Source of the DNA: a virus
Length of the DNA: 20,775 nucleotides
IMG/VR virus record: IMGVR_UViG_3300008448_000824
Span: 1 to 20,775 of that record
Direction: 5' to 3' (one strand)
The notes beneath the pieces were generated by a model. It saw only the letters and a program-made list of their open reading frames with translations. It made no database searches and was not told the origin of the DNA. Shown here one piece after another: positions 1-20,775 of this stretch (the first letter of the stretch is position 1; every line of letters starts with the position of its first letter). The translations under genes were made by a program, and so were the position numbers.

Positions 1-1
1 C

Positions 2-58
2 ATTGTTGGGCATAACTTCATAAGCATGGATAGTCTGCGGTCGATGTATGGAGACTGA
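2..58 (+). CDS. C-terminal end of an unidentified upstream gene (5' partial)
   Basis: The reading frame from base 2 is open for 18 codons and ends at TGA 56-58. The other two forward frames stop within the first 30 bases. The visible peptide ends in MDSLRSMYGD. The stop lies 2 bases before the next ATG, the same tight spacing seen throughout the window, which supports a real gene end. Too little is visible to name a family. The position upstream of the terminase would suit a small terminase or another packaging gene, but nothing in these residues shows that. Confidence 0.45.
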   Translation: MVGHNFISMDSLRSMYGD

Positions 59-60
59 CG

Positions 61-273
61 ATGGACGAGGAAGATGAAGTGGTCGTAGTTGGGCAGGAAA
101 GCGAGCTGGCGCAGTTGGCTGGTGCGTTGTGTGAATTGGCGCAGCAGATTGATCTAACGCGCGACGAGGATGCCCGTATTTACTTGTTGCAGGCGATGGC
201 TGGCATTACCTACATGCTCAACCCGCCGAAGGGGGAAGTTCATGTCTTCGAAGGAAGCAAAGGAAAGCGGTAA
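61..273 (+). CDS. Small acidic hypothetical protein upstream of the large terminase
   Basis: This is a 70-residue ORF whose ATG is preceded by GGAG at 50-53. The N-terminus is very acidic (MDEEDEVVVV), the middle (about residues 14-52) looks helical and Leu/Ala-rich, and the tail is basic (GSKGKR). Its 3' end overlaps the terminase start by 32 bases in another frame, so the two are probably co-translated. It sits where a small terminase subunit often lies. However, it is shorter than usual for TerS and shows no helix-turn-helix that I can recognise, so I leave the function open. Confidence 0.6.
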   Translation: MDEEDEVVVVGQESELAQLAGALCELAQQIDLTRDEDARIYLLQAMAGITYMLNPPKGEVHVFEGSKGKR

Positions 274-1651
274 CGACTTCGTCACGTTCATTGAGCGGTA
301 CGAGCGCGACCCTGTCGGCTTCGTCGAGAATGTTCTCGAAGCGAAGCCACTTCCTTGGCAGAAAGAGTTTTTGAACGCTCTGGCGCGTGGCGAGCGTCGC
401 ATCTCGGTGCGTGCTGGTCACGGCGTTGGGAAGTCGACGGCGTGTTCGTGGGCTTTGATCTGGCACATGACGACGCGTTATCCGCAGAAGGCGGTGGTTA
501 CTGCGCCGACATCCGCGCAGCTGTTTGATGCTCTCTATTCGGAATTGAAGACGTGGATCAATAAGCTGCCACCTGTTTTGCGTGAGAGCTTTGAGGTTTT
601 CTCCGATCGCGTTGTGCTGAAGGGAGCGCCTGAGAGTTCGTTTATCTCGGCGCGTACCAGCTCGACGGAGAGGCCGGAAGCCTTGGCCGGCGTTCACTCT
701 GAGCATGTGCTTCTGGTGGTCGACGAGGCGTCTGCTGTGCCTGAACAGGTGTTTGAGGCAGCGGCTGGCTCGATGTCTGGTCACTCGGCTTCGACGATCC
801 TGATCTCGAACCCGACGCGCAACTCGGGCTTATTCTACAAGACGCATCACGACCTAGCGTCCGATTGGTTTCGGATGCACGTCTCTTGCTTGAATATTCC
901 GCTCGTTTCGTCTGACTTCGTCGCGCAAATCAAGGCGACCTATGGCGACGAGAGCAATGCGTTCCGCATCCGTGTTCTTGGTGAGTTCGCGCTTGCTGAC
1001 GACGACACACTCATACCGGCGGAGTTGGTTGATGGGGCAATCGGACGTGACGTGGTGGCTGGTGCCAATGATCCTCTTGTTTATGGTCTCGACGTGGCGC
1101 GTTTTGGAACTGACCGGACTGCTTTGGTAAAGCGGAAGGGGAACGTCGTTCTAGACGTGAAGTCGTGGGGCGGTCTCGATACGATGCAAGTTGTCGGCGC
1201 GATCGTGAATGAAATGAAGATCGACAACCCTGACGAGATTTGCGTCGATACGATCGGTCTCGGTTCTGGTGTGGCCGATCGCCTGCGCGAGATGGGCTAC
1301 AACGTGCGAGATGTGAACGTGGCAGAGAGTTCTGCCATGAACCCGAACGCAAATAAGCTGCGCGACGAATTATGGTTGAGCGTGAAGGATTGGCTGACGA
1401 CGAGGGCAGTGAAGCTGCCGGTTGACGATCAGCTGCGGCATGAGCTGGTTGCGCCGCGTTATTCGTTCACATCGAGCGGCAAGGTACAGGTTGAGAGCAA
1501 GGACAGCATGCGGAAGCGGCGCATGCGTTCGCCTGACTTGGCCGACGCGTTGTGTCTCACGTTTGCGTCTCAGGCTGCGATGGTCGGAGGTCGCGCGTTC
1601 AAGTGGTTGCCGGGAAAAGCTTTGAAGCGTCACATCAAGGGCGTTGTCTAA
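242..1651 (+). CDS. terL: Terminase large subunit (packaging ATPase and nuclease)
   Basis: This 469-residue protein is the DNA-packaging motor that docks on the portal, pumps DNA into the procapsid and cuts the concatemer. The N-terminal ATPase has a Walker A-type loop, RAGHGVGKST (residues 57-66), and a Walker B, LLVVDE (157-162), followed by a coupling-type motif ILISNPTR. The C-terminal RNase H-like nuclease shows the acidic motifs VYGLDVARFGTDRT, EICVDTIGLGSG and SPDLADAL, which give the expected three Asp ligands. An in-frame start exists further upstream at 170. I chose the ATG at 242 because GGGGGAAG lies just before it and the next residues lead directly into the family's N-terminal helix. 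Motif order and length are typical of the Terminase_6 type. Confidence 0.95.
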   Translation: MSSKEAKESGNDFVTFIERYERDPVGFVENVLEAKPLPWQKEFLNALARGERRISVRAGHGVGKSTACSWALIWHMTTRYPQKAVVTAPTSAQLFDALYSELKTWINKLPPVLRESFEVFSDRVVLKGAPESSFISARTSSTERPEALAGVHSEHVLLVVDEASAVPEQVFEAAAGSMSGHSASTILISNPTRNSGLFYKTHHDLASDWFRMHVSCLNIPLVSSDFVAQIKATYGDESNAFRIRVLGEFALADDDTLIPAELVDGAIGRDVVAGANDPLVYGLDVARFGTDRTALVKRKGNVVLDVKSWGGLDTMQVVGAIVNEMKIDNPDEICVDTIGLGSGVADRLREMGYNVRDVNVAESSAMNPNANKLRDELWLSVKDWLTTRAVKLPVDDQLRHELVAPRYSFTSSGKVQVESKDSMRKRRMRSPDLADALCLTFASQAAMVGGRAFKWLPGKALKRHIKGVV

Positions 1652-1699
1652 TGTTTGCGTTGAGGACGCAATCAACGTATTTTCGGCGCAAACAGGAGG
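1652..1699 (+). promoter_or_regulatory. Overlapping inverted repeats leading into a strong ribosome binding site
   Basis: The gap between the terminase and the next gene holds three mutually exclusive pairings. TTGCGT (1655-1660) pairs with ACGCAA (1666-1671), CGTTGA (1658-1663) with TCAACG (1672-1677), and TGTTTGCG (1652-1659) with CGCAAACA (1687-1694). The last arm touches the Shine-Dalgarno AGGAGG (1694-1699) of the gene at 1706. The base pairing is seen directly. A role in translation control, RNA processing or attenuation is inference, and no T-run follows that would make it an ordinary terminator. Confidence 0.4.
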
Positions 1700-1705
1700 C
1701 CGATC

Positions 1706-2014
1706 ATGGCTAAGACGCCTGCATGGACGCGCAAGGCCGGCAAGAATGCGAAGGGCGGCTTGAATGAGACGGGCCGCAAATCGTATGAGGCGGCTAATCT
1801 TGGTTCTGATCTAAAACCGCCTGTGAAGGCTGGCGATAACCCGCGCCGTGCGTCGTTTCTTGCGCGCATGGGTAACATGCCGGGGCCTGAATATAAGGAC
1901 GGCGAACCGACGCGCTTGCTGAAATCGTTGCAAGCGTGGGGAGCCTCGAGCAAGGCTGACGCGAAGAAGAAGGCGGCAGCGATCAGCAAGCGGAACGAAG
2001 GGAAGAAGAAATGA
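1706..2014 (+). CDS. Small basic phage protein, DUF6321-like
   Basis: This 102-residue, Lys/Arg-rich protein begins MAKTPAWTRKAGKNAKGGLN, continues with a GRKSYEAANLGSDLKPP stretch and then NPRRASFLARMGNMPGP, and ends in a run of lysines. The order of these blocks matches my recollection of the DUF6321 family, which is widespread in marine and soil phages and has no proven function. AGGAGG at 1694-1699 supports the start. The stop overlaps the next gene as ATGA. The charge suggests nucleic-acid contact, but that is inference only. Confidence 0.75.
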   Translation: MAKTPAWTRKAGKNAKGGLNETGRKSYEAANLGSDLKPPVKAGDNPRRASFLARMGNMPGPEYKDGEPTRLLKSLQAWGASSKADAKKKAAAISKRNEGKKK

Positions 2015-2166
2015 AAAAGGTTTGGGACACGAAAGACCCGACGAAGTCGGACAAGAAGCTAACGCCGAAGCAGAAGGCGTCTGCGAAGGCTGCGGCAGCG
2101 AAGGCTGGTCGTCCGTATCCGAACCTCGTCGACAACATGCGCGCCGCGAAAAAGAAGGGCAAATGA
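2011..2166 (+). CDS. Very small Lys/Ala-rich phage protein
   Basis: This 51-residue ORF starts at an ATG that overlaps the previous stop (ATGA) and ends at TGA 2164-2166, one base before the next ATG. The protein runs MKKVWDTKDPTKSDKKLTPK, then an Ala/Lys-rich helix, then AGRPYPNLVDNMRAAKKKGK. The GRPYPNLVDNM block is one I recall from many small phage ORFs near DUF6321-type genes. No function is known to me. It is strongly basic like both of its Lys-rich neighbours. Its exact fit between two genes and its conserved-looking tail make a spurious ORF unlikely. Confidence 0.7.
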   Translation: MKKVWDTKDPTKSDKKLTPKQKASAKAAAAKAGRPYPNLVDNMRAAKKKGK

Positions 2167-2167
2167 C

Positions 2168-2650
2168 ATGGCTGAAGAGATGGAAGGCGGCGCTTGTCCG
2201 GTTGCTACGCGCGACATCACGATCAACTTGCAGAACCGTGGCAAGGCGATCGACAAGGCTAATTACGGGCCTATGAACCCGCGCAAGCCGAACGATCGCT
2301 ACTGGCAGCAGCTGGCTGCGAAGTGGGACGTTCCGGTTGAAGAAGCGAAGACGATGCGCTGCGGCAACTGCGCGGCGTTCAATCAGACAGAGAGAATGAT
2401 GGACTGCATTGCGCAGGGCCTTGGTGGAGAGGGAATGGCAGATGACCCTATGGAAACGATTGAAGCAGGCGATCTTGGATTTTGTGAAATCTTCGACTTC
2501 AAGTGCGCCGCAGAGCGAACCTGTGACGCATGGATCGTCGGCGGTCCGATCACGGACGAAGAAGAAGGCGACGAGTACGGCGAAGACGACGAATACGGCG
2601 AAGACGAAGAAGGCTCCCCCGAAGACGAAAGCTACAACGAAGAGGACTAA
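2168..2650 (+). CDS. Cys-rich conserved phage protein, possible iron-sulfur or zinc site, acidic tail
   Basis: This 160-residue protein has six cysteines clustered in residues 65-119: CGNC (65, 68), C80, C106, C113 and C119. They sit in the blocks MRCGNCAAFN, LGFCEIFDFKCAAERTCDAW and GGPITD. I recall this block pattern from a phage family that is sometimes labelled high-potential iron-sulfur-like. A metal or cluster site is plausible, but the ligands are not proven. After residue about 128 the sequence becomes an acidic tail (Asp/Glu/Tyr/Gly) built on a tandem 18-base repeat. That tail is also fully open in the next frame, see 2442-2657, so the real C-terminus may be shorter or shared. The ATG is 1 base after the previous stop. 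Confidence 0.7.
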   Translation: MAEEMEGGACPVATRDITINLQNRGKAIDKANYGPMNPRKPNDRYWQQLAAKWDVPVEEAKTMRCGNCAAFNQTERMMDCIAQGLGGEGMADDPMETIEAGDLGFCEIFDFKCAAERTCDAWIVGGPITDEEEGDEYGEDDEYGEDEEGSPEDESYNEED

Positions 2651-2657
2651 GTCTTGA
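2442..2657 (+). CDS. Possible overlapping gene: Lys/Thr-rich, histone-like basic protein
   Basis: This second ORF of 71 residues lies inside the 3' half of the Cys-rich gene in the next frame. It begins MTLWKRLKQAILDFVK, an amphipathic-looking helix, and ends in about 35 residues made almost only of Lys, Thr, Ala, Pro and Arg, like the tail of a histone H1-like protein. Three things favour translation: an AGAGGGA at 2428-2434 spaced 7 bases before the ATG; a TGA stop at 2655-2657 that forms a TTGA overlap with the TTG start of the next gene, matching the coupling used elsewhere; and plausible codons (AAG, ACG, GCG). Against it, the same bases encode the acidic tail of the other ORF, and a short repeat can keep two frames open by chance. 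Confidence 0.4.
   Translation: MTLWKRLKQAILDFVKSSTSSAPQSEPVTHGSSAVRSRTKKKATSTAKTTNTAKTKKAPPKTKATTKRTKS
2570..2605 (+). repeat. Tandem 18-base repeat in the dual-frame segment
   Basis: Two adjacent 18-base units, GACGAGTACGGCGAAGAC at 2570-2587 and the same with one G-to-A change at 2588-2605. In one frame they encode acidic DEYGED units, and in the next frame Lys/Thr/Ala-rich units. Because 18 is divisible by 3, expansion or contraction keeps both frames intact. Confidence 0.8.
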
Positions 2658-3343
2658 AGGTAGCGATCTGCATACCGGCGCGGGAGACGGTGTGTTCTGG
2701 CTTTGCAAAAGACTTGGCGATGTTGACTGCCAACATTTACGCCGGTCTACCGCAAGGTGGGACGTTCAACATTAACATTCTCAGCGGCACGCTCATTGCG
2801 GACCAGCGGCAGAACCTTGTCCGCAAAGCGTTTGCGGCTGATTACGACTACGTCCTGTTCCTCGATGCCGACATGCGGTTCCCGGCGAACACATTCTGGC
2901 AGCTGCAAAAGCACGACAAGGACATCGTCGCCGCGAACTACCCGACGCGGCGCATTCCCGTGAAGACGGTCGCGTTCCGTGACTTTGCAAACCTCGAGTG
3001 CATCTACACGGACAGCGCCAGCACGGGTCTGGAAGAGGTTGATGCCGTCGGCATGGGCTGCATGCTCATCAAGATGGACGTTTTTCGGAAATGCCCGTTG
3101 CCTTGGTTTAATCTGGCGTGGCTTCCGTCTGGCAATGTGTGGGTCGGAGAAGATATTTACTTCTGCAAGCTCGCACAGGCGAACGGGTTCAAGGTTTACA
3201 TCGACCACGACCTGTCAAAAGACGTGAAGCATATCGGCACGATGGAGTTCACGCACGATCATGCGGTTGAGTGCAGGCCAGACATACCGTTCGATGTTGC
3301 GGATGCGGCAGAAAAGATTTCAGCAATGGAGGCGTCGGAATGA
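2654..3343 (+). CDS. Glycosyltransferase, GT-A fold (family 2-like)
   Basis: This 229-residue protein starts with the first beta strand of a GT-A domain (KVAICIPARET) and carries a DxD-type metal/sugar-nucleotide motif, FLDADMRFP, with the Asp-Ala-Asp at residues 71-73. Later come GMGCMLIKMDVF and WVGEDIYFCKLA, where a GED-like acid would be the catalytic-base region, and a late His in DVKHIG. The start is TTG at 2654. No nearby ATG gives a complete fold, and TTG overlaps the TGA of the putative basic ORF. The stop overlaps the next ATG as ATGA. Substrates are unknown. It could glycosylate virion protein, DNA or a host surface molecule. Being sandwiched between packaging genes and followed by a methyltransferase suggests a modification cassette. 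Confidence 0.82.
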   Translation: MKVAICIPARETVCSGFAKDLAMLTANIYAGLPQGGTFNINILSGTLIADQRQNLVRKAFAADYDYVLFLDADMRFPANTFWQLQKHDKDIVAANYPTRRIPVKTVAFRDFANLECIYTDSASTGLEEVDAVGMGCMLIKMDVFRKCPLPWFNLAWLPSGNVWVGEDIYFCKLAQANGFKVYIDHDLSKDVKHIGTMEFTHDHAVECRPDIPFDVADAAEKISAMEASE

Positions 3344-3498
3344 AGAAGTCGAAATCAGACAAGAAGATCGGCAAAGTGATGGACGAGTACGCAGCAGGCA
3401 AGCTGCACAGCGGCTCGAAGAAGGGTCCGGTCGTGAAATCGAAGAAGCAGGCGATTGCGATCGCTCTGAGCGAAGCCGGCAAGAGTAAAAAGAAGTGA
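3340..3498 (+). CDS. Small Lys-rich protein, DUF6496-like
   Basis: This is a 52-residue basic protein. It starts with ATG at 3340, overlapping the glycosyltransferase stop as ATGA. The frame is open further upstream, but only over the glycosyltransferase gene. Recognisable blocks are KIGKVMDEYAAGKLHSG and KKQAIAIALSEAGKSKKK, which match the DUF6496 pattern as I recall it (KVM-E-...-LKSG, then KQAIAIALSEAG). The family occurs widely in bacteria and phages without a known function. Its stop overlaps the GTG start of the next gene as GTGA. Confidence 0.8.
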   Translation: MKKSKSDKKIGKVMDEYAAGKLHSGSKKGPVVKSKKQAIAIALSEAGKSKKK

Positions 3499-4052
3499 AA
3501 CACTTCTTCGATGAGATCGACGGCTGGTTCAATTTCAGCAAGCCCTACCGTGCAGCGGTAAAGGCGGCGAAAGATGGCGCGATCTTCGTCGAATTAGGGT
3601 GCTGGAAAGGCAAATCTGCGTCTTTTCTTGGCGTCGAGATCGTAAACAGCGGAAAGTCGATCGCATTTCACTGCGTCGACCATTGGGGCGGCTCAAACGA
3701 GCCAGCGCACAAGGCTGATCCCGATCTTGAGCGCGTTTTCGACATCTTCAACGAGAACATGGACCGCATCGACGGTCTCGATCTGCATGTGCATCGCATG
3801 GCTTCGGCTCCTGCGGCGCATTTGTTTGAAGATGGGACGATCGACTTCGTCTGGATTGACGCGGGCCACGAATACGAAGAAGTCATGGCTGACATCGAAG
3901 CATGGTGGCCGAAGGTGAAGGCCGGCGGCGTCATGGGCGGTGACGACTACCCGATGGATGGTGTAAAGAAAGCTGTGGATACAGTTTTCACCGGACGCGA
4001 GGTCGGCTCTGAGAATGGCTGGCAGTGGTGGCGCGTTCGGAAGAAGGGATAG
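3495..4052 (+). CDS. Class I SAM-dependent methyltransferase (Methyltransf_24-like)
   Basis: This 185-residue Rossmann-fold enzyme has the SAM-binding glycine loop at FVELGCWKGKSA (residues 31-42), a second-strand acidic region at HCVDHWGG (59-66), and a late block, DFVWIDAGHEYEEV (117-130), followed by KAGGVMGGDDY. WIDAGHEYEEV with a downstream GG-G-DDY pattern is typical of the Methyltransf_24 group, many of which act on sugars or small molecules. The start is GTG at 3495, sharing bases with the preceding TGA. It directly follows a glycosyltransferase, so methylation of a transferred sugar is a reasonable but unproven idea. Methylation of another acceptor cannot be excluded. Confidence 0.85.
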   Translation: MKHFFDEIDGWFNFSKPYRAAVKAAKDGAIFVELGCWKGKSASFLGVEIVNSGKSIAFHCVDHWGGSNEPAHKADPDLERVFDIFNENMDRIDGLDLHVHRMASAPAAHLFEDGTIDFVWIDAGHEYEEVMADIEAWWPKVKAGGVMGGDDYPMDGVKKAVDTVFTGREVGSENGWQWWRVRKKG

Positions 4053-4055
4053 GCA

Positions 4056-4676
4056 ATGGCTGATCTAACAAGTCTCTCGCCAGAGCAGATGCTTCTTCTG
4101 CAACAGCTCGGAATGATGCGCGGCCTTGGCGACATGGGCGCTTCGACGGTTTCAAATAACGGGCCTATCTCAGCAACCGCCAGCAACTTTGCGATCTCTC
4201 CTGATACGGCGATGCAACTCGGCAACGTCAGCGGGGCTTTGCCATTTGACGGCGGCAGCATCAGAGGCGGCGTCAATTATCAGGGTATGAACTTCCCCGG
4301 CAGCAATCAGACGACGGTTGTTCCGAACGTAGGTGTCAATTTAGGGCCTATGAACGCAAACTACTCAGCCGCCTTTACCCCGCAGGGTACGCAACAGAGC
4401 GTCGGCGGCGGGTTTGACTTTGGGCCGTTTGCGCTCAATTACCAGCGAGGACTAGGAAACGAGCGCGTGAAACCTACCGACACGTTCGGCGTCTCTGCGC
4501 CGATCGGTCCTGCGCTCCTTAACGCAGCCATGACGCGCGGTGAAGGTATACCGACGCAATACACGGGCGGCGTGACAGTGCCGGGTCTTCTTGGCGGCGA
4601 CCTCGGTGTGACTGCGTCCTATTCGCCAGAAGACAAAAAGAGATCGGTTTTTGGCCGGTTCTCTAAGCGGTTTTAA
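4056..4676 (+). CDS. Gly/Asn-rich hypothetical protein, possible virion component
   Basis: I do not recognise this 206-residue protein. It opens with a helical stretch (SLSPEQMLLLQQLGMMRGLG) and then becomes rich in Gly, Asn, Ser and aromatic residues in alternating patterns such as GGVNYQGMNFPG, VGVNLGPMNANYSAAF, GGFDFGPFALNYQRG and GGDLGVTASYSP. The alternation and the final basic-aromatic FGRFSKRF suggest beta strands. There is no signal peptide. It starts 3 bases after the methyltransferase stop, with AAGGGAT upstream, and lies just before the portal. A minor head or neck protein is possible from position alone. Confidence 0.6.
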   Translation: MADLTSLSPEQMLLLQQLGMMRGLGDMGASTVSNNGPISATASNFAISPDTAMQLGNVSGALPFDGGSIRGGVNYQGMNFPGSNQTTVVPNVGVNLGPMNANYSAAFTPQGTQQSVGGGFDFGPFALNYQRGLGNERVKPTDTFGVSAPIGPALLNAAMTRGEGIPTQYTGGVTVPGLLGGDLGVTASYSPEDKKRSVFGRFSKRF

Positions 4677-4687
4677 GAGGTAGTCCG

Positions 4688-6874
4688 ATGGCAATGCTCC
4701 CCGGTAAATACGACCCAAGCTATACGCCGATCCCGAAGCCGAAAGTGCTGAACGGCGACACGGGGCTGCTTGTCCCTGACGCTGGCCCGATGGATGACGA
4801 CGAGTTCGCCTTCGTATTGCGTCAGGCGATCGAGAACGCGCAGAGCTACATCGACAGCTACCTCGCGCCCGAGCGCGAAGCAGCGATGGCGTACTACCTT
4901 GGCGACAAGTTCGGCAACGAGGAAGATGGCGTCTCTCAGGTCGTCCTGACCGAAGTGCGCGACACGATCCTTGCGATGCTGCCGTCGCTGCTCCGCATCT
5001 TCACGGGGCCTGAGAAGGTCGTCGAGTTCATTCCGAAGCAGAAGGAAGATGTGCCTGCGGCGGAGCAGGCGACAGACCTCATCAATTACATCTTCATGCA
5101 GGAAAACCCCGGCTTCCGCATCCTGCACGATGCCATGAAGGACGCGCTGATCCTGAAGACCGGCGTTCTGACTTGGTACAAGGTCGATGACGAGAGCGTC
5201 GAGTATTACAGCTATTCGGGCTTGATGGCCGAAGAGATGATGCTCATTCAGGCCGAGCCGGGCGTGACGATCGACGAAATGATCGAAGAGTTCGACAGCG
5301 CGATTGGGATGCCATTCTATAGCATCAAGGTTAGGCGCGTGAAGCGATCGCCTCGCTATGTCGTCGAGTGCATCCCGCCCGAGCAGTTCCTAATCGACAG
5401 CGAAGCGACGAACATCGACGACGCGATCTATGTCGGTCGCCGCAAGCTTGCGACTGTCTCCGAGCTGGTTGCGATGGGCTATGACCGCGACATCATTGAA
5501 CAGAACGCCGGCACGGGCGGTTTTGAAGAGAACCTCGAGGTTCTTGTCCGCAACCCGGCAGATCAGTCGTTCTTCGGCATCACGAACGCGACGGACGAGA
5601 CCACCGATCGCGTGTTCTATGTCGAAAGCTATGTCCGCGTGGACAAGGATGGCGACGGCATCGCGGAGCTGCACAAGGTCTGCTCCGTTGGCAATGGTGC
5701 CTACATCCTGCACGACGAAGTCGTTCAGCATGCGCCGTTCTCGATCCTCTCCCCTGATCCGACGCCGCACACGATCTTTGGTCAGTCGATCGCAGATCAG
5801 ACGATGGACTTGCAGCTGATTAAGTCGTCGATCATGCGGAACACGCTCGACAGCCTCGCGCAGTCGATCCATCCCCGCACAGTCGTCGTCGAAGGTCAGG
5901 TCAATCTGGACGACGTGATGAACGTCGAGACGGGCGCAATTATCCGCGCTCGCGCGCCGGGTATGGTTGCGCCGCTCTCCGAGCCTTTCGTGGGCCAGCA
6001 GGCTCTCGGCGTGATGGCATACCTCGACGAGATCAAGACGCAGCGCACGGGCATCTCGCGCGCCTCGCAGGGCCTCGATGCCGATGTGCTGCAATCGACG
6101 ACGAACGCTGCCGTTCAGGCGCAGCTGACATCGTCGCAGGAGCGCGTCGAGATGATCGCGCGCATATTCGCTGACGGCCTGAAGCGGTGCTTCCAAGGGC
6201 TTCTAAAGCTCGTCGTGCAGCATCAGGACAAGCCGAAGATCATCCGCCTGCGTAACCAGTTCGTGCCGATCGACCCGCGTTCGTGGGACGCGACGATGGA
6301 CATGACGGTCAACATCGCGCTTGGCCGTGGTTCTGACGAGCAGCGCATGGCCTTCCTGATGCAGATCATCGCGCAGCAGAAAGAGGTCATTCAGCTCTAT
6401 GGCCCGTATAATCCGCTCGTCGACCTCGTCCAGCTCCGCGATGCGCTGGCCGAAGTGACGCAGCTCGCCGGCTTCCAAGACCCGGCGCAGTTCTGGAAAG
6501 AGATCAATCCAGAAGAGGTCGCCGCGTTCATGGAGCAGATGAGCCAGAACAAGCCGCAAGACCCGGCTGCGATGCTGGCAGAGGTCGAGGCCGAGAAAAT
6601 CAAGGCCGACATCATCATCCAAGCCGCGAAGCAGGAACTTGATCGGCAGAAGGCGATGGCGCAGGCCGATCTTGAGCGCGACAAGCTCGTCGTCGATGCC
6701 ATGCTGAAGGCGATCGAGATACAAGCAAAGTATGGCGCTCAAGTGGATATGGCGATGATTAAGGGCGAGATTGACCGCCAGCGCGAGGAAATCCGTGCCA
6801 TGTTCAGTGCGGCACAGGCGCAAGCAGTTGCGCCGCAGCCGGCTGAACCGATGCAGATGCCGATGGGGATGTGA
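4688..6874 (+). CDS. Portal protein, P22-like
   Basis: This 728-residue protein, close to the length of the P22 portal, forms the dodecameric ring through which DNA enters and leaves the head. Family features include an N-terminal helical region with SYIDSYLAPEREAAMAYYLG, VSQVVLTEVRDTILAMLPSL and FTGPEKVVEFIPK; a central part with PRYVVECIPPEQFLIDSEA and PFSILSPDPTPHTIFGQSI; and the stem/wing region LMDLQ-like with QTMDLQLIKSSIMRNTLDSL. Residues about 629-710 form a long charged helix or coiled coil, which resembles the helical barrel of P22-type portals. The last residues are Pro/Gln/Met-rich. AGAGGT lies before the ATG. The stop overlaps the next gene. Confidence 0.93.
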   Translation: MAMLPGKYDPSYTPIPKPKVLNGDTGLLVPDAGPMDDDEFAFVLRQAIENAQSYIDSYLAPEREAAMAYYLGDKFGNEEDGVSQVVLTEVRDTILAMLPSLLRIFTGPEKVVEFIPKQKEDVPAAEQATDLINYIFMQENPGFRILHDAMKDALILKTGVLTWYKVDDESVEYYSYSGLMAEEMMLIQAEPGVTIDEMIEEFDSAIGMPFYSIKVRRVKRSPRYVVECIPPEQFLIDSEATNIDDAIYVGRRKLATVSELVAMGYDRDIIEQNAGTGGFEENLEVLVRNPADQSFFGITNATDETTDRVFYVESYVRVDKDGDGIAELHKVCSVGNGAYILHDEVVQHAPFSILSPDPTPHTIFGQSIADQTMDLQLIKSSIMRNTLDSLAQSIHPRTVVVEGQVNLDDVMNVETGAIIRARAPGMVAPLSEPFVGQQALGVMAYLDEIKTQRTGISRASQGLDADVLQSTTNAAVQAQLTSSQERVEMIARIFADGLKRCFQGLLKLVVQHQDKPKIIRLRNQFVPIDPRSWDATMDMTVNIALGRGSDEQRMAFLMQIIAQQKEVIQLYGPYNPLVDLVQLRDALAEVTQLAGFQDPAQFWKEINPEEVAAFMEQMSQNKPQDPAAMLAEVEAEKIKADIIIQAAKQELDRQKAMAQADLERDKLVVDAMLKAIEIQAKYGAQVDMAMIKGEIDRQREEIRAMFSAAQAQAVAPQPAEPMQMPMGM

Positions 6875-7533
6875 TGACGTTCGACCTAGAAACTGTCGAG
6901 CGCGAAACGATCGAGGCGGTCCAGAAGGGCCACCTCGTCTTTCAGGCTCACAGGTTCGCAGAAGACGACTTTCAGCACGTTCGCCGGCTGGCTTTGTGGG
7001 CTGACGTGCCTGATGGCTCGCGCATCGTCGATATGGGCAGCGGCGTCGGTGAAATGGCGCGGATTTGGTCGCTCATCCAGCCGGAAGTCTCGTTCTGCCT
7101 CGTCAACATCAGCCCATTGCAGCTCGAGTTGTCGCCGCCAGAGATGAAGCGGCATTGCTGCGACATGCTCGACGTGCCAGAACCGGACGAGGCGTTCAAT
7201 GCGGCGATCTGCTGCTTCTCGATCGGCCATGTCGATCGGTTTAAGGCGTTCAGGGAGATGGCGCGGCTCGTAAAACCGGGCGGCATCGTATTTATCTACG
7301 ACATGGTCCGCATCGATGGCGACAACGAGCGTCTGTTAGAGCTTGCGTATCGCGTCGATGGGCGTGACGTGGTGGAAAGCTACGCCGAGATGGCCGGATT
7401 GCAGCTCGATCTCTATATCGAGCCGGCAGATGCCGGCTGGTATGGCGAAAACGCGCTTGGAGACGGCTTCCGTTACTACTTCGGAGACGTGAAGCCGGCG
7501 ATCTGGAGGTTCAGGAGGGGCCATGTCGTTTGA
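6874..7533 (+). CDS. Class I SAM-dependent methyltransferase (Methyltransf_11/25-like)
   Basis: This 219-residue protein has a SAM-binding loop, IVDMGSGVGE (residues 51-60), a following strand SFCLVNISPLQLEL, an acidic DMLDVPEPDEAFNAAICCFS region, and the late block MARLVKPGGIVFIYDMV, which is typical of small-molecule methyltransferases. A GTG at 6871 would also give an in-frame start. I prefer ATG at 6874 because GGGG at 6865-6868 is then 5 bases upstream rather than 2. It is unrelated in detail to the methyltransferase at 3495: its motif I and spacing differ. The target is unknown, and its place between portal and scaffold genes is unusual for a core head gene. Its 3' end overlaps the next ORF by 11 bases. 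Confidence 0.83.
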   Translation: MTFDLETVERETIEAVQKGHLVFQAHRFAEDDFQHVRRLALWADVPDGSRIVDMGSGVGEMARIWSLIQPEVSFCLVNISPLQLELSPPEMKRHCCDMLDVPEPDEAFNAAICCFSIGHVDRFKAFREMARLVKPGGIVFIYDMVRIDGDNERLLELAYRVDGRDVVESYAEMAGLQLDLYIEPADAGWYGENALGDGFRYYFGDVKPAIWRFRRGHVV

Positions 7534-7780: not shown

Positions 7781-7792
7781 GGGAGTAAATAC

Positions 7793-8824
7793 ATGAACAC
7801 AGCCGAGCAGTCGCAGCCTAGCGAAATCGGCATTGCAGAAGCAGCAGATCGGATGGCGGCATTATTGGGAGGCGAAGCCGAACCCAAACCCGCCAAAAGT
7901 CAGCCTGCCCCTGCCGAGACCGAAGAGGTCGAGGCGTCTGCGGAAGATGTCGAAGAGACGCCTTCTTATGACGGAGAGGCCGCAGAGACCGACGAGGTCG
8001 ATGCGTCGTCAGAAGAAGATGCGACGGAAACCGCAGAGGACGACGAAGATAGTTCTGAGGGCGAGCCTTCGGATGATACGCTCATAACCGTCAAGATTGA
8101 CGGCAAGATGCAGCAAGTCACTCTGAAAGAAGCGCGTGAAGGTTATCAACGGCAGTCCGATTATTCGCGCAACATGAATGCGATCCGCGAGGAGAAGCAG
8201 GAAGTTGAAGCGGTACGTCAACAGGCGAAAGCTCTAGAGGAGACTTACGCGCAGTTAATCCCGGCACTACGGCAGCAGCTTGAAAGCATGATGCCGCAAG
8301 AGCCAGACTGGGAAAAACTGCATCGTGAAGACCCTTTGAATTATCCGCTGATTAGGGACCAATGGCGCGACTATCAGGAGCGCCTTGTTGCGACGAGAGC
8401 CGAACAGGAACGTCTCAGCTACCAACGTCAGCAGGAAGAGCAAGCGCAACTTCGGAAGATTGTCGAAGAGGGTCAGAAGTGGCTCGTCGAGAAAAATCCA
8501 GAGTGGCGTGATGCGAAGAAGTGGGACGACGCGCGTAGCAAGCTAAAGGACTATGGCCGCAAGGTCGGCTATACGGACGAAGAACTCGCGCAAGCATACG
8601 ACCCACGCGCCCTGTTAGTTCTCGACAAGGCTCGTAAATATGACGAGCTGATGGCTAACCGCCCCAAACCTCAAAAGCAGGAAGGGCCTAAGCCGATGAA
8701 AGCGGGAACAGCGGCATCATCGCCGCGCAAGACGACCGAGATCACGCGGATGAAACAACGTCTCGCTAAAACCGGCAGCGTCGACGACGCAGCTGCCTTT
8801 TTCGGACTTCTAGACAGGAGGTAA
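7793..8824 (+). CDS. Capsid scaffolding protein
   Basis: This 343-residue protein would organise major capsid subunits during procapsid assembly and then leave the head. It has the usual make-up of such proteins: a low-complexity acidic region (residues about 25-95, Glu/Asp/Ala/Ser), a short beta-like ITVKIDGKMQQVTLKEAREG segment, and a long charged coiled coil (about 125-228, rich in Glu, Gln and Arg). A basic C-terminus (KRKTTEIT-like, ending FFGLLDRR) would contact the capsid lattice. GGGAG precedes the ATG. It sits immediately upstream of the capsid gene, the standard position. No protease is visible nearby, so removal by exit or outside processing remains open. Confidence 0.86.
   Translation: MNTAEQSQPSEIGIAEAADRMAALLGGEAEPKPAKSQPAPAETEEVEASAEDVEETPSYDGEAAETDEVDASSEEDATETAEDDEDSSEGEPSDDTLITVKIDGKMQQVTLKEAREGYQRQSDYSRNMNAIREEKQEVEAVRQQAKALEETYAQLIPALRQQLESMMPQEPDWEKLHREDPLNYPLIRDQWRDYQERLVATRAEQERLSYQRQQEEQAQLRKIVEEGQKWLVEKNPEWRDAKKWDDARSKLKDYGRKVGYTDEELAQAYDPRALLVLDKARKYDELMANRPKPQKQEGPKPMKAGTAASSPRKTTEITRMKQRLAKTGSVDDAAAFFGLLDRR
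8816..8822 (+). promoter_or_regulatory. Strong ribosome binding site of the major capsid gene
   Basis: AGGAGGT, a full match to the 16S anti-Shine-Dalgarno core, lies 6 bases before the capsid ATG at 8829 and touches the scaffold stop (TAA 8822-8824). It is among the best sites in the window, as expected for the most abundant structural protein. Confidence 0.8.
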
Positions 8825-8828
8825 GCCG

Positions 8829-9809
8829 ATGGCTTCCGTTTCTAAAGTAACCACCTACGATGCAAGCAACGCGATCCGCGAAGACCTTGCGAACATCATC
8901 TACGACATCTCGCCCGTCGATACGCCGTTCATGTCGAACGTCGGTCGTGACACTGCCTCGAACACTTATTTTGAGTGGCAGACAGACGAATTAGCCGCAG
9001 CCGGCGTAAATGCTGCGATCGAAGGCGCAAATGCCGGCGATGCCGACTTTGACGCAACTTTGCGCGTTGCCAACTACTGCCAGATCAGCACGAAGGTCGT
9101 CTCGGTGTCGAACACCTCTGACGCCGTCAACACTGCCGGCATGCGTACCGTCATGGCCTACCAACAGGCCAAAAAAGCGAAAGAGCTAAAACGGGATATG
9201 GAATTTATCCTGTTGCGCAACCAAGCGGCTGTCGCAGGCAACAACTCGACCGCCCGCAACACTGCCGGTCTCCCGGCTTGGTTGCAGACGAACATTCAGG
9301 CGAACAGCGCCGTCGCTCCGACGATGTCTGGCGCTGGTGGCAACGGCTACCCGAACGCTGGTTGGACGAGCCTCTCGACCGCAACAGACGTTGCGTTCAC
9401 TGAAGCGATGCTCAAGACAGCGCAGCAGCAGGCTTGGTCGGAAGGCGGCAATCCGTCGATCCTCATGGTCGGCCCGTACAATAAGACCGTCGCTTCGGCG
9501 TTCGCTGGTCTTGCTGAACAGCGCGTCACCTACAACCAAGTGAAGCCGCTCAAGATCATTGCGACCGCTGACGTCTACCTCGGTGACTTCGGTGAACTTG
9601 CAATCGTTCCGAACCGCTTCCAGCCTGAGAACTTCGCGTTCGTCCTCGACCCCGAATATGCTTCGGTGTCCTACCTCCGTCCGTTCCGCGTCATCGACAT
9701 CGCTCCGACGGGCGATGCGGTGAAGAAGGAACTCGTTGTCGAGTACGGCCTCCGCGTGAAGAACGAAAAGGCTCACGCGATCATCGCCAACCTCACGACT
9801 TCGGCTTGA
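8829..9809 (+). CDS. Major capsid protein, SU10/DUF5309 type
   Basis: This 326-residue protein builds the icosahedral shell. Its N-terminus (EDLANIIYDISPVDTPFMSN, then TYFEWQTDELAAAG) and the following VSVSNTSDAVNTAGM-AYQQAKKAKELKRDMEF region match the HK97-fold capsid group annotated as DUF5309 or SU10-like major head protein. The C-terminal part, with YLGDFGELAIVPNRF and DPEYASVSYLRPFRV, fits the P- and A-domain end of that group. It has no long N-terminal delta domain, in keeping with a separate scaffold gene. Codon choice is biased to frequent codons, as in a highly expressed gene. It is followed at once by a strong terminator. Confidence 0.93.
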   Translation: MASVSKVTTYDASNAIREDLANIIYDISPVDTPFMSNVGRDTASNTYFEWQTDELAAAGVNAAIEGANAGDADFDATLRVANYCQISTKVVSVSNTSDAVNTAGMRTVMAYQQAKKAKELKRDMEFILLRNQAAVAGNNSTARNTAGLPAWLQTNIQANSAVAPTMSGAGGNGYPNAGWTSLSTATDVAFTEAMLKTAQQQAWSEGGNPSILMVGPYNKTVASAFAGLAEQRVTYNQVKPLKIIATADVYLGDFGELAIVPNRFQPENFAFVLDPEYASVSYLRPFRVIDIAPTGDAVKKELVVEYGLRVKNEKAHAIIANLTTSA

Positions 9810-12021: not shown

Positions 12022-12030
12022 GGGGCCAAC

Positions 12031-12549: not shown

Positions 12550-13082
12550 TGTCTATTGTTCTCAATTCCGCTGGCGGTGGCTCCATCACGTTGAATGAGC
12601 CTAATACCGCATCGAACCGTGTCCTCGAGTTGCCGAACAACAGCGGCACTCTGATTTCGACTGGCTCCACGTTCGCAGGAAATGGTCCTGCGTTTCTTGC
12701 CTCCGCTGATGGAACTCAATCCGTCTCAAATGCCACGTTTACAAAGATGCTTTTGCCAACGGAGTCATTTGATACTGCAAGCGCTTTTGCCAGCAACACT
12801 TTTACTCCGCTTGTTGCAGGGTATTATATCCTTTCATTCGTTGTAAACTTTAGCTCTACATCAGGGCAGATGTTCTGTGAGCTGAGGAAAAACAATTCTC
12901 GGTTCGCTCTTGGTAGCATTGTGCCGGGAACGGCTATTGAAGGCGTCTCGTCTGGATCGGCACTAGTGTATCTTAATGGTTCAACTGACTTTGTAGACCT
13001 TTATGGGTATCAAAATTCCGGTGGAAGCGCGACATCAAGAGGTTCTACTTATCTTTCTGGCGCGCTTGTGAGGGCTGCATAA
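12549..13082 (+). CDS. Tail-fibre protein with C1q-like tip domain (copy 1)
   Basis: This 177-residue protein starts at ATG 12549, overlapping the previous stop. An upstream in-frame ATG at 12534 lies inside the previous gene and is less likely. The N-terminus (SIVLNSAGGGSITLNEP, then RVLELPNNSGTLISTGS) is a common phage fibre anchor. From about residue 45 it has a C1q/TNF-like jelly-roll pattern: GPAFLASADGTQSV, FTPLVAGYYILSFVV, ALVYLNGSTDFVDLYGY and a terminal TYLSGALVRAA. Such tips usually form receptor-binding trimers. The second half is clearly more A/T-rich than the flanking genes and holds the only GANTC site found. A related copy lies at 14390-14902. Confidence 0.82.
   Translation: MSIVLNSAGGGSITLNEPNTASNRVLELPNNSGTLISTGSTFAGNGPAFLASADGTQSVSNATFTKMLLPTESFDTASAFASNTFTPLVAGYYILSFVVNFSSTSGQMFCELRKNNSRFALGSIVPGTAIEGVSSGSALVYLNGSTDFVDLYGYQNSGGSATSRGSTYLSGALVRAA
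12762..12766. other. Only GANTC (CcrM/HinfI) site seen in the window
   Basis: GAGTC at these bases is the only GANTC that I found by reading the whole window. It encodes the Glu-Ser junction in TESFD of the C1q-like fibre, where Ser is TCA. See the GANTC finding. Confidence 0.75.
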
Positions 13083-13285: not shown

Positions 13286-13287
13286 AG

Positions 13288-14205: not shown

Positions 14206-14207
14206 CC

Positions 14208-14902: not shown

Positions 14903-14921
14903 ATAATTCGGAGTTGCGGCG

Positions 14922-15155
14922 ATGGACTTGCAGCACGTCCTTAACTTCGCCATTGGTGCAGTTCTCGCCGCTCTCGGCTGGTTCGCCCGTCAACTGTGGG
15001 ATGCCGTTGCCGCTCTGCGTGACGACATCCGCACGCTCGAGCGCAACCTTCCGGTGCATTACGTTCGCAAGGACGACTTCGTCGATGCCATGCGGCGTGT
15101 TGAAGACATGCTGATTAAGATTTTCGACAAGCTCGACGGGAAGGTGGACAAATGA
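14922..15155 (+). CDS. Lysis-cassette membrane/coiled-coil protein
   Basis: This 77-residue protein has one hydrophobic segment at residues about 8-26 (NFAIGAVLAALGWFARQLW) followed by a charged helix (LRDDIRTLERNLP, then VEDMLIKIFDKLDGK). This resembles small phage proteins with an N-terminal membrane anchor and a coiled coil, found beside holins and sometimes called holin-like or XhlA-like. GGAG at 14910-14913 supports the ATG. Its stop overlaps the holin start as ATGA, tying it to lysis. It could be a holin partner, an antiholin or a spanin-like element, and the sequence does not decide between them. Confidence 0.68.
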   Translation: MDLQHVLNFAIGAVLAALGWFARQLWDAVAALRDDIRTLERNLPVHYVRKDDFVDAMRRVEDMLIKIFDKLDGKVDK

Positions 15156-15541
15156 CGTTCGGTATCGGAGACGCTGTCGCCGCTGGCCTGAAGGTCATCG
15201 ACAAGTTCATTCCTGATCCGCAGGAGAAGATCAAAGCCGAAGAGGCTCTTCGCCGCGATCTTCAGGCTTGGGATAAGGGCCAGACCGACATCAACATCGA
15301 AGAGGCGAAGCACTCGTCGATATTTGTTTCTGGATGGCGTCCCGCTTTAGGTTGGACTTGTACATTCGCTTTTGCGTTTATTTACGTTTTCGGCCCGCTC
15401 GTCACATGGATTTCGACGATGGCAGGAAATCCCATTCCGCTTCCGTCTTTTAACGTCGAAGCACTCATGGGCCTGACGCTCGGCATGCTAGGTCTCGGCG
15501 GTCTTCGCACGTTTGAGAAGGTTAAAGGCGTAGCGCGGTGA
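15152..15541 (+). CDS. Holin, 3-TM GTA-type
   Basis: This 129-residue protein has an amphipathic start (AVAAGLKVIDKFIPDPQEK), a charged helical middle with EEALRRDLQAWDKGQTDIN, and then hydrophobic spans at about residues 64-87 and 103-120. The HSSIFVSGWRPALGWTC block is diagnostic of the family called holin of 3TMs, gene-transfer-agent release, common in alphaproteobacterial phages and gene transfer agents. It would open the inner membrane so that the endolysin can reach the wall. ATG overlaps the previous stop and its own stop overlaps the GTG of the endolysin, so the three lysis genes are translationally linked. Confidence 0.86.
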   Translation: MTFGIGDAVAAGLKVIDKFIPDPQEKIKAEEALRRDLQAWDKGQTDINIEEAKHSSIFVSGWRPALGWTCTFAFAFIYVFGPLVTWISTMAGNPIPLPSFNVEALMGLTLGMLGLGGLRTFEKVKGVAR

Positions 15542-16074
15542 AAGAGAACTTCGATCGAGCCTTTATTGAGACGCTGAAGCACGAAGGCGGATGGGCGGAT
15601 CATCCCCGCGACCCCGGCGGCATGACGAACCTCGGCGTGACGAAGCGCGTGTGGGAGGACTACACGGGCCGGCGCGTCACAGAAGCCGACATGCGTGCGC
15701 TGACGCCTGAGATGGTCAAGCCGCTTTACCGCGATTGGTACTGGAACAAGGTTGGCGGCAACGATCTTCCTTCCGGCGTGGACTTCGTGGTCTACGACTT
15801 CGCAGTAAACTCTGGCCCTGCTCGCGCAGTTCGCTTCGCGCAGAAGATTAGCGGCGCAACGCAAGACGGTGCGATGGGGCCGAAAACGCTGGCGAAGATC
15901 AAGGAATATTGCGACCAGAACGGCGAAGAGTTCTTTATCAAGGCTTACTCTGATGCGCGTCTGGCGTACCTTGAAGGTCTAAGCACGTTCCGCTTGTTTG
16001 GTAGGGGTTGGACCAACCGCGTGAACGATGTAGAACATTACGCGTCGGTGATGTCGAGAACAGAGGTTGCCTGA
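15538..16074 (+). CDS. Endolysin: GH108 muramidase with peptidoglycan-binding end
   Basis: This 178-residue protein starts at GTG 15538, which shares bases with the holin stop (GTGA). Residues 12-30 hold the GH108 signature TLKHEGGWADHPRDPGGMTN, in which Glu16 is the expected catalytic acid. The next block, LGVTKRVWEDYTGR, and then YRDWYWNKVGGNDLPSGVDF fit the family. The C-terminal third (ISGATQDGAMGPKTLAKIKE) matches the PG_binding_3 domain normally joined to GH108. It degrades cell-wall glycan strands at the end of infection. There is no signal peptide, in keeping with release through the holin. Its length is normal for the family. Confidence 0.93.
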   Translation: MKENFDRAFIETLKHEGGWADHPRDPGGMTNLGVTKRVWEDYTGRRVTEADMRALTPEMVKPLYRDWYWNKVGGNDLPSGVDFVVYDFAVNSGPARAVRFAQKISGATQDGAMGPKTLAKIKEYCDQNGEEFFIKAYSDARLAYLEGLSTFRLFGRGWTNRVNDVEHYASVMSRTEVA

Positions 16075-18032: not shown

Positions 18033-18277
18033 CGACCTACCCTGCGCCTAACGTAGTCCTGCCGATCCCGCCAGATCGGTACGATGCGTCTTATTTCGCG
18101 CGCACGCTGAACAATCTGAACAGGACCATCGCGTCGGCGGTCATCAAGGACGTGGCGGTCTCGTCGGTGCTACTTCAATCTCCTGACGGAAGCGTCTATA
18201 AGGTTGAGGTAGATAACGCAGGCAACCTAACAACTTCGGCGGTTCCTCTTGGACAGCAAGGCGCGCCTCCTTACTAA
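18029..18277 (+). CDS. Small virion-associated protein
   Basis: This 82-residue protein begins TTYPAPNVVLPIPPDRYDAS, then YFARTLNNLNRTIASAV, and ends with a beta stretch, SPDGSVYKVEVDNAGNLTTS. The closing DGS-YKV-V-AGNL pattern is shared by several small phage tail proteins as I recall. The ATG overlaps the stop of the large tail protein as ATGA. It probably accompanies that protein in the tail. No enzyme motif is visible. Confidence 0.68.
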   Translation: MTTYPAPNVVLPIPPDRYDASYFARTLNNLNRTIASAVIKDVAVSSVLLQSPDGSVYKVEVDNAGNLTTSAVPLGQQGAPPY

Positions 18278-18278
18278 G

Positions 18279-18614
18279 ATGCGTAAGGCTCTCAAGATCG
18301 GGAGCGATACGCATAGCTTGGACGACGTGATCGGATGCCTCAAACGAGGCGAGATGCAGGCGTTCACAAACGATCGAGCAATCATTGTGACCTCGATCGT
18401 CGAAGCTCCGCAGAAGAAGTATGTCGAGTTCTTTATGTCTGCGGGCGACATGGATGCGGTGCTTAGTCTTTTTCCTGAAGTTAGGGAATGGGCGATAGCA
18501 CAAGGAGCAGATTTCGGTCGGGCGTTTGTCCGTCCCGGTTTTGAGGACATCTTCAAGCAGCAAGGCTGGAAGAGGAAGTCCATCTTGATGGAATATCACC
18601 CGAAGGGGAACTGA
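18279..18614 (+). CDS. Conserved phage protein, GNAT-like by look
   Basis: This 111-residue protein starts at ATG 18279, one base after the previous stop. An in-frame TTG at 18249 would add ten residues but has no ribosome site either. The order of blocks, THSLDDVIGCLKRGEMQAF, AIIVTSIVEAPQKKYVEFFM, SAGDMDAVLSLFPEVREWAI and GFEDIFKQQGWKRKSILMEY, resembles a short GNAT-fold-like phage family found near ejection-protein genes. The usual acetyl-CoA loop (Q/R-x-x-G-x-G/A) is not visible, so activity is doubtful. It may be an internal virion protein. The family is recalled, not proven. Confidence 0.64.
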   Translation: MRKALKIGSDTHSLDDVIGCLKRGEMQAFTNDRAIIVTSIVEAPQKKYVEFFMSAGDMDAVLSLFPEVREWAIAQGADFGRAFVRPGFEDIFKQQGWKRKSILMEYHPKGN

Positions 18615-18615
18615 C

Positions 18616-19518
18616 ATGGGCGGCGGAAGCAAAGCACCAGCGACGACCACGACGATCCAGAAGACGGAGCTTCCGGCGTGGCTTGAGGGTATTACGAAAG
18701 AAAACCTTTCTATCGCTGACACGATCTCGAAGCGTCCTTATGAAGCTTACGGCGGTCAGACGATCGCTGGCTTCGCTCCCGAACAGGAGCAGGCGTTCGA
18801 TTATATGCGTGGCGGTGTCGGATTAACTGACCCGCTTTATGCGCGAGCAACTGGCGTCACGTCTGATGTCGCTGGCTATCAGCCGACAAGCTTTCTCAAT
18901 GCCAATCTGCAAGGGTATATGAACCCGTTTACGCAGAACATTGAGGATCGAGCGATCGAGGCTGCGAACCGTTCTCTGCGTATGTCAACGAACCGGATCG
19001 GGGATCAGGCGCGAGCTGCCGGCGCGTTCGGCGGCTCTCGTCAGGGGATCGCGGAAGGCGTTGCAGCGTCTGAGGCGGCAACTGGTATCGGTGATCTCTC
19101 TGCTCGTTTGCGGGCGGATGCGTTCAATCAGGCGGCTTCGCAATTCGGTGCAGATCAGGCGCGTGCGGCGCAGGCAGCACAGCTCCGCATGGGCGCTGCC
19201 AACCAGCTCGGCTCTCTCGCTCAACAGCAGCAGGCGGCTCGTATTCAAGACGCATCGCTGCTTGAGCAGATTGGCATGCAGCGGCAGGCGATGCAGCAGG
19301 CGCAACTTGATGACGCATACAACCGTTATCTTGAGCGCCGCAACTACCCGATCGAGATGCTTAATCTGCGTCTCGGTGCAACGTCGGCAACGCCTTACGG
19401 CGGCACATCGACAACGCAAAGCACAGCTCCGCGTCAGGGTGGCAACGCTCTGATGACTGGTCTCGGTGCAGCCGGCACGGTCGCGTCGATCGGCGCTTCT
19501 CTAGCAACGATTTTCTGA
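18616..19518 (+). CDS. Internal virion / DNA-ejection-type protein
   Basis: This 300-residue protein begins GGGSKAPATTTT and has WLEGITKENLSIADTIS, YEAYGGQTIAGFAPEQEQAF, and then a repeat-poor central region with FLNANLQGYMNPFTQNIED. From about residue 115 it is one long Ala/Gln/Arg-rich helix (AARIQDASLLEQIGMQRQAM), followed by a Thr/Ser linker and a Gly/Ala-rich hydrophobic end (GLGAAGTVASIGASLATIF) that could enter a membrane. This architecture is common in podophage proteins expelled into the host with the DNA. AAGGGGA precedes the ATG. The stop overlaps the next gene as TGATG. Confidence 0.66.
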   Translation: MGGGSKAPATTTTIQKTELPAWLEGITKENLSIADTISKRPYEAYGGQTIAGFAPEQEQAFDYMRGGVGLTDPLYARATGVTSDVAGYQPTSFLNANLQGYMNPFTQNIEDRAIEAANRSLRMSTNRIGDQARAAGAFGGSRQGIAEGVAASEAATGIGDLSARLRADAFNQAASQFGADQARAAQAAQLRMGAANQLGSLAQQQQAARIQDASLLEQIGMQRQAMQQAQLDDAYNRYLERRNYPIEMLNLRLGATSATPYGGTSTTQSTAPRQGGNALMTGLGAAGTVASIGASLATIF

Positions 19519-20204
19519 TGCGGACGGTCCTTCAATTCTCTGGCGGTAAAGACAGCCTCGCCTGCCTTTACCTTTTCCGTGACCATTGGGAGACGCTGCC
19601 TGTGGCGTGGCTCAACTCTGGTGCGGCCTATTCAGAGATGCAGGACTACATGCAGATGTGGAAAGAGCGCCTGCCGAACTTCATCGAAATCAAGTCGAAC
19701 CAGCCGCAGCAAATTGCGGAGTTCGGGTGGCCGGCTGACGTTGTGCCGGTCAACAGCACGACGGCAGGGAAGTCGATCACAGAAAACGATGGCCCGCTGA
19801 TACAGCCTTATCTGTCGTGCTGCGCGGCAAACATCTGGTTCCCATTGCACAATGCAATGGTCGAGATGGGCGTCGAGCGGATCATTCGCGGCACGCGCTT
19901 GGAAGATAAGCGCAAGTCGCAGTTTCGTAACGGCGACATCATCGACGGCATCCAGCTCGTTCATCCGATCGAGAACTGGACGACAGAACAAGTCTATGAC
20001 TATCTCGACGAGATGCGCGCAGACTTTCCGCCGGGTTACAATGAAGGCGAACAGACGGGCCGTGACTGTTGGGACTGCACAGCGTATTTAGACGAGAACA
20101 AGGCGCGGATCGAAAACCTACCGGAAGAGCGCAAGGCTGAAGTGAAGCGGCGTCTCGGTCTGATCGGTGAAGCAATTCGCCAGCAGTGGCATGAGGTGAT
20201 CTGA
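19518..20204 (+). CDS. PP-loop ATPase of the PAPS/APS-reductase family with Fe-S cysteine pattern
   Basis: This 228-residue protein has the ATP-pyrophosphatase loop FSGGKDSLACLYL (residues 7-19), a GTRLEDKRKSQF block (125-136) and HPIENWTTEQVYDYL (149-163), all hallmarks of the PAPS-reductase family. It also has adjacent cysteines Cys101-Cys102 and a CWDC at 184-187, 81 residues later. That spacing is like the CC...CxxC that holds the [4Fe-4S] cluster of APS reductases. The catalytic ECG-x-H end of true reductases is absent: the protein stops at QQWHEVI. It may adenylylate or thiolate an unknown substrate rather than reduce sulfate. It lies between two ejection-type genes and overlaps both by 1 base. 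Confidence 0.85.
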   Translation: MRTVLQFSGGKDSLACLYLFRDHWETLPVAWLNSGAAYSEMQDYMQMWKERLPNFIEIKSNQPQQIAEFGWPADVVPVNSTTAGKSITENDGPLIQPYLSCCAANIWFPLHNAMVEMGVERIIRGTRLEDKRKSQFRNGDIIDGIQLVHPIENWTTEQVYDYLDEMRADFPPGYNEGEQTGRDCWDCTAYLDENKARIENLPEERKAEVKRRLGLIGEAIRQQWHEVI

Positions 20205-20775
20205 TGGAAGATATGCGCAAACGTTTCATTCAGCAGATGATGCCGTATGCGCTTGAAGCATCTCGTGCAACAGGCGTTGATCCACGCATCATCATTGGTC
20301 AGGCTGCGATCGAAACAGGTTTCGGCAAGAGCGCACCGGGGCAAAACTATTTCGGCATCAAGTCGCATGGCGCTCCCGGCGGGAAGACGCTTTCGACAAG
20401 TGAATATGGCGATGGCGGTATGTACCGCACGGCAGATAGTTTCCGCCAGTATGGATCGATGGCCGATAGTGCTGCGGACTATGCGAAGTTCATCAATGAA
20501 AATCAAAGATATTCAGGCTTGCGTCAGGCGCAAGGGTTGGATGCGCAACTCGCTGAATTGCAAAAGTCTGGCTATGCGACAGACCCTAACTATTCAGCGA
20601 AGGTCGGCTCAATAGCTCGGGATATTAATTTTCTAGATGGTACAGCTGTCGCGCCTGCTGTTGCCGCAGCAACGCCTGCGGCTCCTGTCTATTCGGCAGA
20701 CCTTGGCACGGCAGCTCGATGGCTTGGTAACACGATCGCGCCAAGCCTTGTCGATGCTCCTACACCTTTGACAAC
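20204..20775 (+). CDS. Virion glucosaminidase, N-terminal part (3' truncated by window end)
   Basis: The frame opens at ATG 20204, overlapping the previous stop (TGATG), and stays open for 190 codons to the window edge. Residues about 15-140 form a glucosaminidase (FlgJ/Mannosyl-glycoprotein endo-beta-N-acetylglucosaminidase type): GVDPRIIIGQAAIETGFGKS holds the likely catalytic Glu37, followed by NYFGIKSHG, MYRTADSFRQYGSMADSAAD and YATDPNYSAKVGSIARDI. After an Ala/Pro-rich linker (about 145-165) a second segment begins. Its place after other ejection-type genes suggests that it is the murein-cutting head of a large ejection protein, as in T7-like phages. That is inference because the rest is outside the window. 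Confidence 0.85.
   Translation, partial: MEDMRKRFIQQMMPYALEASRATGVDPRIIIGQAAIETGFGKSAPGQNYFGIKSHGAPGGKTLSTSEYGDGGMYRTADSFRQYGSMADSAADYAKFINENQRYSGLRQAQGLDAQLAELQKSGYATDPNYSAKVGSIARDINFLDGTAVAPAVAAATPAAPVYSADLGTAARWLGNTIAPSLVDAPTPLT

Follow-up and report, generated by a model that had tools for sequence, protein, structure and literature searches.

Introduction

That dsDNA phage genomes can lose nearly all copies of a palindromic Type II site by selection was described by Rusinov et al. (2018; PMC6286503), in whose survey the sites avoided by phages are almost all of the orthodox Type II kind. In the same survey, site elimination is rarer in temperate phages and occurs mainly in non-temperate ones, and coliphages with hydroxymethylated cytosine show no avoidance (PMC6286503). 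In pelagiphages, GANTC depletion follows phage phylogeny, and a link to host methylation has been suggested (PMC9516812).

Here we describe a 20,775 nt stretch of viral DNA (the window) from which such sites have likewise been lost almost completely. It differs from the surveyed cases (PMC6286503) in that several sites were erased together in a phage that has both predicted integrase and mom genes; the hydroxymethylcytosine of the coliphages is a protecting modification different from that of Mom. The GANTC depletion is shared with the pelagiphages, which are other phages with SAR11 hosts, but here CCWGG, RGATCY, and other palindromes were erased as well, whereas the accessible part of the pelagiphage report describes no depletion of other words (PMC9516812). 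The Sinorhizobium phage phiM5 (MF074189; 24.8 kb) shares homologous portal (49% identity) and capsid (52%) proteins and an integrase with the phage studied here and lacks GANTC and RGATCY (0/52 and 0/10; ratios of site counts are observed/expected). However, in phiM5, CCWGG is only reduced (9/45), and the sequence is distant. Finally, the full-genome contig encodes a homologue that scores above the cut-off of the family of Mu Mom (PF25680), with about 30% identity to annotated Mom-like phage proteins and a putative role in DNA modification. Both site elimination and GANTC depletion are already known, and the present genome adds a strong example to them. What is unusual is the erasure of multiple sites in a lineage with predicted integrases, one member of which also encodes a Mom homologue.

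Results

GANTC is nearly absent from the window

The window contains a single GANTC, the GAGTC at 12762–12766 (annotated without a strand), which lies within a tail/fibre-like gene and is present also in an identical contig, G002, at position 3963. The initial annotation had reported this one site and considered it far too few; the count is exact, and three null models agree. A maximal-order Markov model predicts 44 sites, and dinucleotide shuffles of the window yield 118.5. In 1,000 within-gene shuffles of synonymous codons, which keep the protein and the codon usage, 45.7 sites are expected (SD 5.0; z = −9.0) and none of the shuffles contained fewer than 32, so that the depletion is independent of amino acid and codon usage, and the selection that had been proposed behind the loss of GANTC is borne out. 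The high frequency of GATC had been taken to argue against a base-composition effect. Indeed, GATC is normal in the window (179 observed, 163 expected under the Markov model), as are, approximately, most of the other NN-N-NN palindromes under that model.

The avoidance is visible in codon choice, with all three reading frames contributing. Serine codons that follow Asp or Glu in the window genes are AGC or AGT in 34 of the 35 cases, as the initial annotation had noticed at a smaller set of junctions, although TCN makes up 319 of all 466 serine codons. None of the 743 NTC codons is preceded by a codon ending in GA, and the arrangement G|ANT|C does not occur in the window genes. The erasure is distributed over the coding sequence and is not confined to promoters.

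GANTC is one of several erased words

GANTC had been presented as a singular case of avoidance. This view is not supported, since other Type II-like sites with no relation to GANTC have been lost just as completely. In a scan of all short words, CCWGG is wholly missing from the window (0 vs. 25–32 expected), as is RGATCY (0 vs. 15–20 expected). Across the entire window (1–20775, without regard to strand), the ratios are 1/44 for GANTC, 0/30 for CCWGG, 0/15 for RGATCY, and 0/14 for GRGCYC, and further words missing from the same region are GGCGCC (0/11), TCGCGA (0/10), and CTGCAG (0/9). When elimination was defined as an observed/expected ratio (O/E) below 0.1 for a Type II site with an expectation of at least 15, both GANTC and CCWGG are eliminated, in the window as well as in the full genome (2/76 and 0/67, respectively). 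As a class, 6 bp palindromes of the window have an O/E of 0.45, compared with 1.01 for non-palindromes, and 16 of the 35 testable palindromic hexamers are at zero, compared with 9 of 1,754 non-palindromic ones. Equal depletion of many unrelated words, which the initial annotation had named as evidence against its interpretation, was accordingly found among palindromes but not among other words.

The window covers half of a genome related to phiM5

The window matches the IMG/VR contig 3300032093_000313 (G002) with 100% identity over 16.7 kb and 99.95% over the remaining 4.2 kb. Both ends of G002 overlap on the window, which implies that the genome is circular and about 40.4 kb long. The window makes up half of this phage genome, which is related to phiM5. 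The following window genes lie on the plus strand: the terminase large subunit (170–1651; PHROG 2, E = 1e-46; the start is uncertain and might be at 233), the portal protein (4688–6874; PHROG 1216, E = 5e-156), which was the basis of the search for relatives and of the tree, the scaffolding protein (7793–8824; PHROG 3927), the major capsid protein (8829–9809; PHROG 1328, E = 2e-102), the endolysin (15538–16074; PHROG 315), and a PAPS-reductase-like protein (19518–20204; PHROG 424). The order of the terminase, portal, scaffold, and capsid genes is homologous to that of a phiM5-like, putatively temperate podovirus. The structural block also holds SAM methyltransferase genes of the Methyltransf_24 (3495–4052) and Methyltransf_11 (6871–7533) types and a glycosyltransferase-like gene (2654–3343), possibly genes for decoration. 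The PHROG of the first of these, on the plus strand, is named DNA methyltransferase, but Pfam finds no DNA-methylase domain in it.

The rest of G002 encodes an AAA helicase, an SSB-like protein, a RuvC-like resolvase, a DUF3799 nuclease, a tyrosine integrase, an HNH protein, the Mom homologue, and a small protein with a weak match to YdaS/CII-type DNA-binding proteins. The second GANTC of the genome is located at 26105, within a stretch (25.3–28.0 kb) for which the mechanically called open reading frames are unconvincing.

The Mom family is known for anti-restriction DNA modification. The homologue (L082:2481–3167, corresponding to genome positions 22481–23167 of G002, minus strand) is encoded outside the window beside the HNH gene and matches PF25680 with an E-value of 1.4e-34 (119.9 bits, compared with a cut-off of 27.1); it is about 30% identical to annotated Mom-like phage proteins. 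Scans of 25 further relatives, among them several partial sequences, yielded no Mom homologue. Between the recombination nuclease gene and the SSB-like gene, G002 has mom, G008 an N6/N4 methylase gene, and MW202711 a cytosine methylase gene, which suggests that this interval is a hotspot of putative anti-restriction genes. Altogether, G008 carries two predicted N6/N4 methylases, whereas a search of G002 for N6/N4 methylases of the CcrM family gave none, and the idea that the phage carries its own CcrM-like methylase was dropped.

A tyrosine integrase (PF00589) is encoded in all seven of the longer clade contigs that were scanned (G002–G008), and none was found in the 25 kb fragment G001. The lineage thus carries lysogeny-type genes and, by its predicted integrases, would be temperate.

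Erasure of GANTC persists in the clade, whereas other words turn over

The comparison set comprised 80 related viral loci and 17 phage records, and the portal tree has 94 rows. GANTC is erased in all 15 members of the portal clade of the window. Across the tree, its erasure requires 5 changes, compared with 19.8 with shuffled labels, a contrast inflated by near-copies, although portal identities within the clade go as low as about 85%. For CCWGG, 14 changes are required on the same tree. GTAC is missing only in G006 (L092, L093) and G008 (L096, L097), at 0/33 and 0/32, and is kept by near relatives; in L006–L012, CCWGG is abundant and CCSGG is low. Hence, among close relatives, the presence or loss of CCWGG, GTAC, and CCSGG varies independently from word to word, and this turnover is what a shifting repertoire of restriction enzymes in the hosts would produce. 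Several relatives with similar portals, among them L018 and L023, have GANTC near expectation. Separate counts of GAWTC and GASTC, a split that bears on CcrM versus a narrower enzyme, revealed no consistent difference. Elsewhere, GATC, the Dam site, is absent from the Vibrio phage VpJYP1 of the same superfamily (0/76) and from C72C1 (zero sites), and the Methylophilales phage Venkman (MT375522, L136), likewise of this superfamily, is another genome with several erased sites (GATC 0/52, CTNAG 0/51, CCWGG 0/23).

Selection still acts on these words. G001 is about 95% identical to the window, with 789 differences, and contains neither GANTC nor CCWGG. When each observed difference was placed singly into the window and new sites were counted, the differences would create 4 GANTC sites vs. 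11.3 expected and 1 CCWGG site vs. 9.2 expected. For G003–G005, in which CCWGG is tolerated, the creation of CCWGG is above expectation (50–58 vs. 36–44), whereas that of GANTC is about half of expectation. This contrast serves as a built-in control for selection on individual words.

Indications of the host

An alphaproteobacterial host, as proposed in the initial annotation, is likely but not proven; the support is indirect and comes from the zero count in phiM5, a cultured phage of S. meliloti, from phages with known hosts, and from plasmid matches. The O/E of GANTC ranges from 0.00 to 0.84 in seven alphaproteobacterial phages of the superfamily, six of which are at or below 0.57, and from 0.74 to 1.29 in seven gamma- and betaproteobacterial phages of the same superfamily. 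General erasure in phages of CcrM-containing hosts was not found: six of the seven alphaproteobacterial phages keep 0.41–0.84, with those of Rhizobium, Sulfitobacter, Ochrobactrum, and Bradyrhizobium at 0.41–0.57. Since a 30 kb piece of S. meliloti pSymB has an O/E of 0.54, values around 0.5 may reflect host-like composition and are not diagnostic; only near-zero values indicate erasure. Among plasmids, all seven portal matches are from Sinorhizobium/Ensifer (27–44% identity).

A scan of genome contigs for prophages with the capsid protein yielded two distant hits, one to a contig of an Actinomycetota MAG and one to a fragment of a Flavobacteriaceae MAG. Searches of plasmids and phages with the integrase gave identities below 35% and no host signal. 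Host assignment via a tRNA-type attP was rejected, as the genomes contain no tRNA and no convincing T-loop match was found near the integrase gene. MJing1 (OQ540923, L124), which is labelled a Microcystis phage, has a GC content of 71% and no GANTC (0/26). In the portal tree, it falls beside phiM5, although by a long-branch join, and it may in fact infect an associated alphaproteobacterium.

Discussion

The window is half of the genome of a phiM5-like podovirus, most likely of an alphaproteobacterium, and the purging of several Type II sites, GANTC and CCWGG above all, was probably due to host restriction. Wherever incoming phage DNA carries an unmethylated site, it would risk being cut, and variants that lose sites, mostly by synonymous substitution, would be favored until none remain. 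We infer restriction enzymes as the agent because many Type II-like palindromes were erased at once, because the erased words turn over between relatives, and because a Mom gene is present. The initial annotation had offered two causes, restriction by the host or interference with CcrM-dependent control. The former is supported, whereas a CcrM-specific cause is not needed, given that unrelated Type II-like sites are equally erased; a changing set of Type II enzymes fits better than CcrM control alone. The integrase and the Mom homologue run against restriction as the explanation, in that the survey finds elimination less often in temperate phages and no avoidance in the hydroxymethylcytosine coliphages; nor was an enzyme for GANTC or CCWGG identified in any host.

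Among the erased words, GANTC shows the most stable loss, as would also be expected from a constant cause linked to CcrM. A GANTC-cutting enzyme would be cheap for alphaproteobacteria, as CcrM already protects the chromosome, and an enzyme sheltered in this way could explain why GANTC is near zero throughout the clade while other erased sites turn over. It is conceivable, if doubtful, that some alphaproteobacteria pair CcrM, as the protecting partner, with an unrecognised GANTC-cutting nuclease, in effect a split restriction-modification system. Such a putative nuclease sheltered by CcrM would combine the two explanations and fit the observations behind each.

A cause in CcrM itself is rather unlikely. 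In that case, GANTC would be harmful via CcrM methylation, via recruitment of GcrA by hemi- or unmethylated sites, via titration of CcrM, or via marking of the DNA, and the other words would have been lost for separate reasons. Besides the stability in the clade, the zero in phiM5 is consistent with this explanation, as are the analogous zeros of GATC in VpJYP1 and C72C1. GANTC is low also around GTA clusters in Rhodobacterales (PMC9836097), and pelagiphages are depleted although no restriction-modification system was found in the SAR11 genomes of that study (PMC9516812). However, the loss is just as deep for CCWGG and other palindromes that have no relation to CcrM, and the erasure extends throughout the coding sequence rather than concentrating at promoters. 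Moreover, the Rhizobium, Sulfitobacter, Ochrobactrum, and Bradyrhizobium phages remain at about the level of pSymB, so that having an alphaproteobacterial host is not by itself enough to bring about erasure.

It is improbable that a phage-encoded endonuclease cutting GANTC and CCWGG in host DNA required the phage genome to lose its own sites. The HNH protein adjoining mom would be the candidate, but relatives with erased sites lack HNH at this position, G002 has no CcrM-type methylase, and HNH_3 proteins are typically homing-type enzymes. Host-like word usage or mutation at methylated sites is hardly credible, as the O/E of 0.02 is far below the 0.54 of pSymB that might speak for it, and composition as the sole cause is ruled out by the codon shuffles, with at least 32 sites, and by L018 and L023, which keep near-expected GANTC despite similar portals.

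The present lineage tests two published generalisations, namely that temperate phages and phages with a protecting DNA modification seldom erase sites. The persistent erasure of GANTC raises the question whether CcrM, regarded as a partnerless cell-cycle methylase, also acts as the protecting partner in a defence system. The set of erased words would be a readable record of the restriction enzymes that a phage lineage has met, and as such can help to predict the hosts of uncultured phages.
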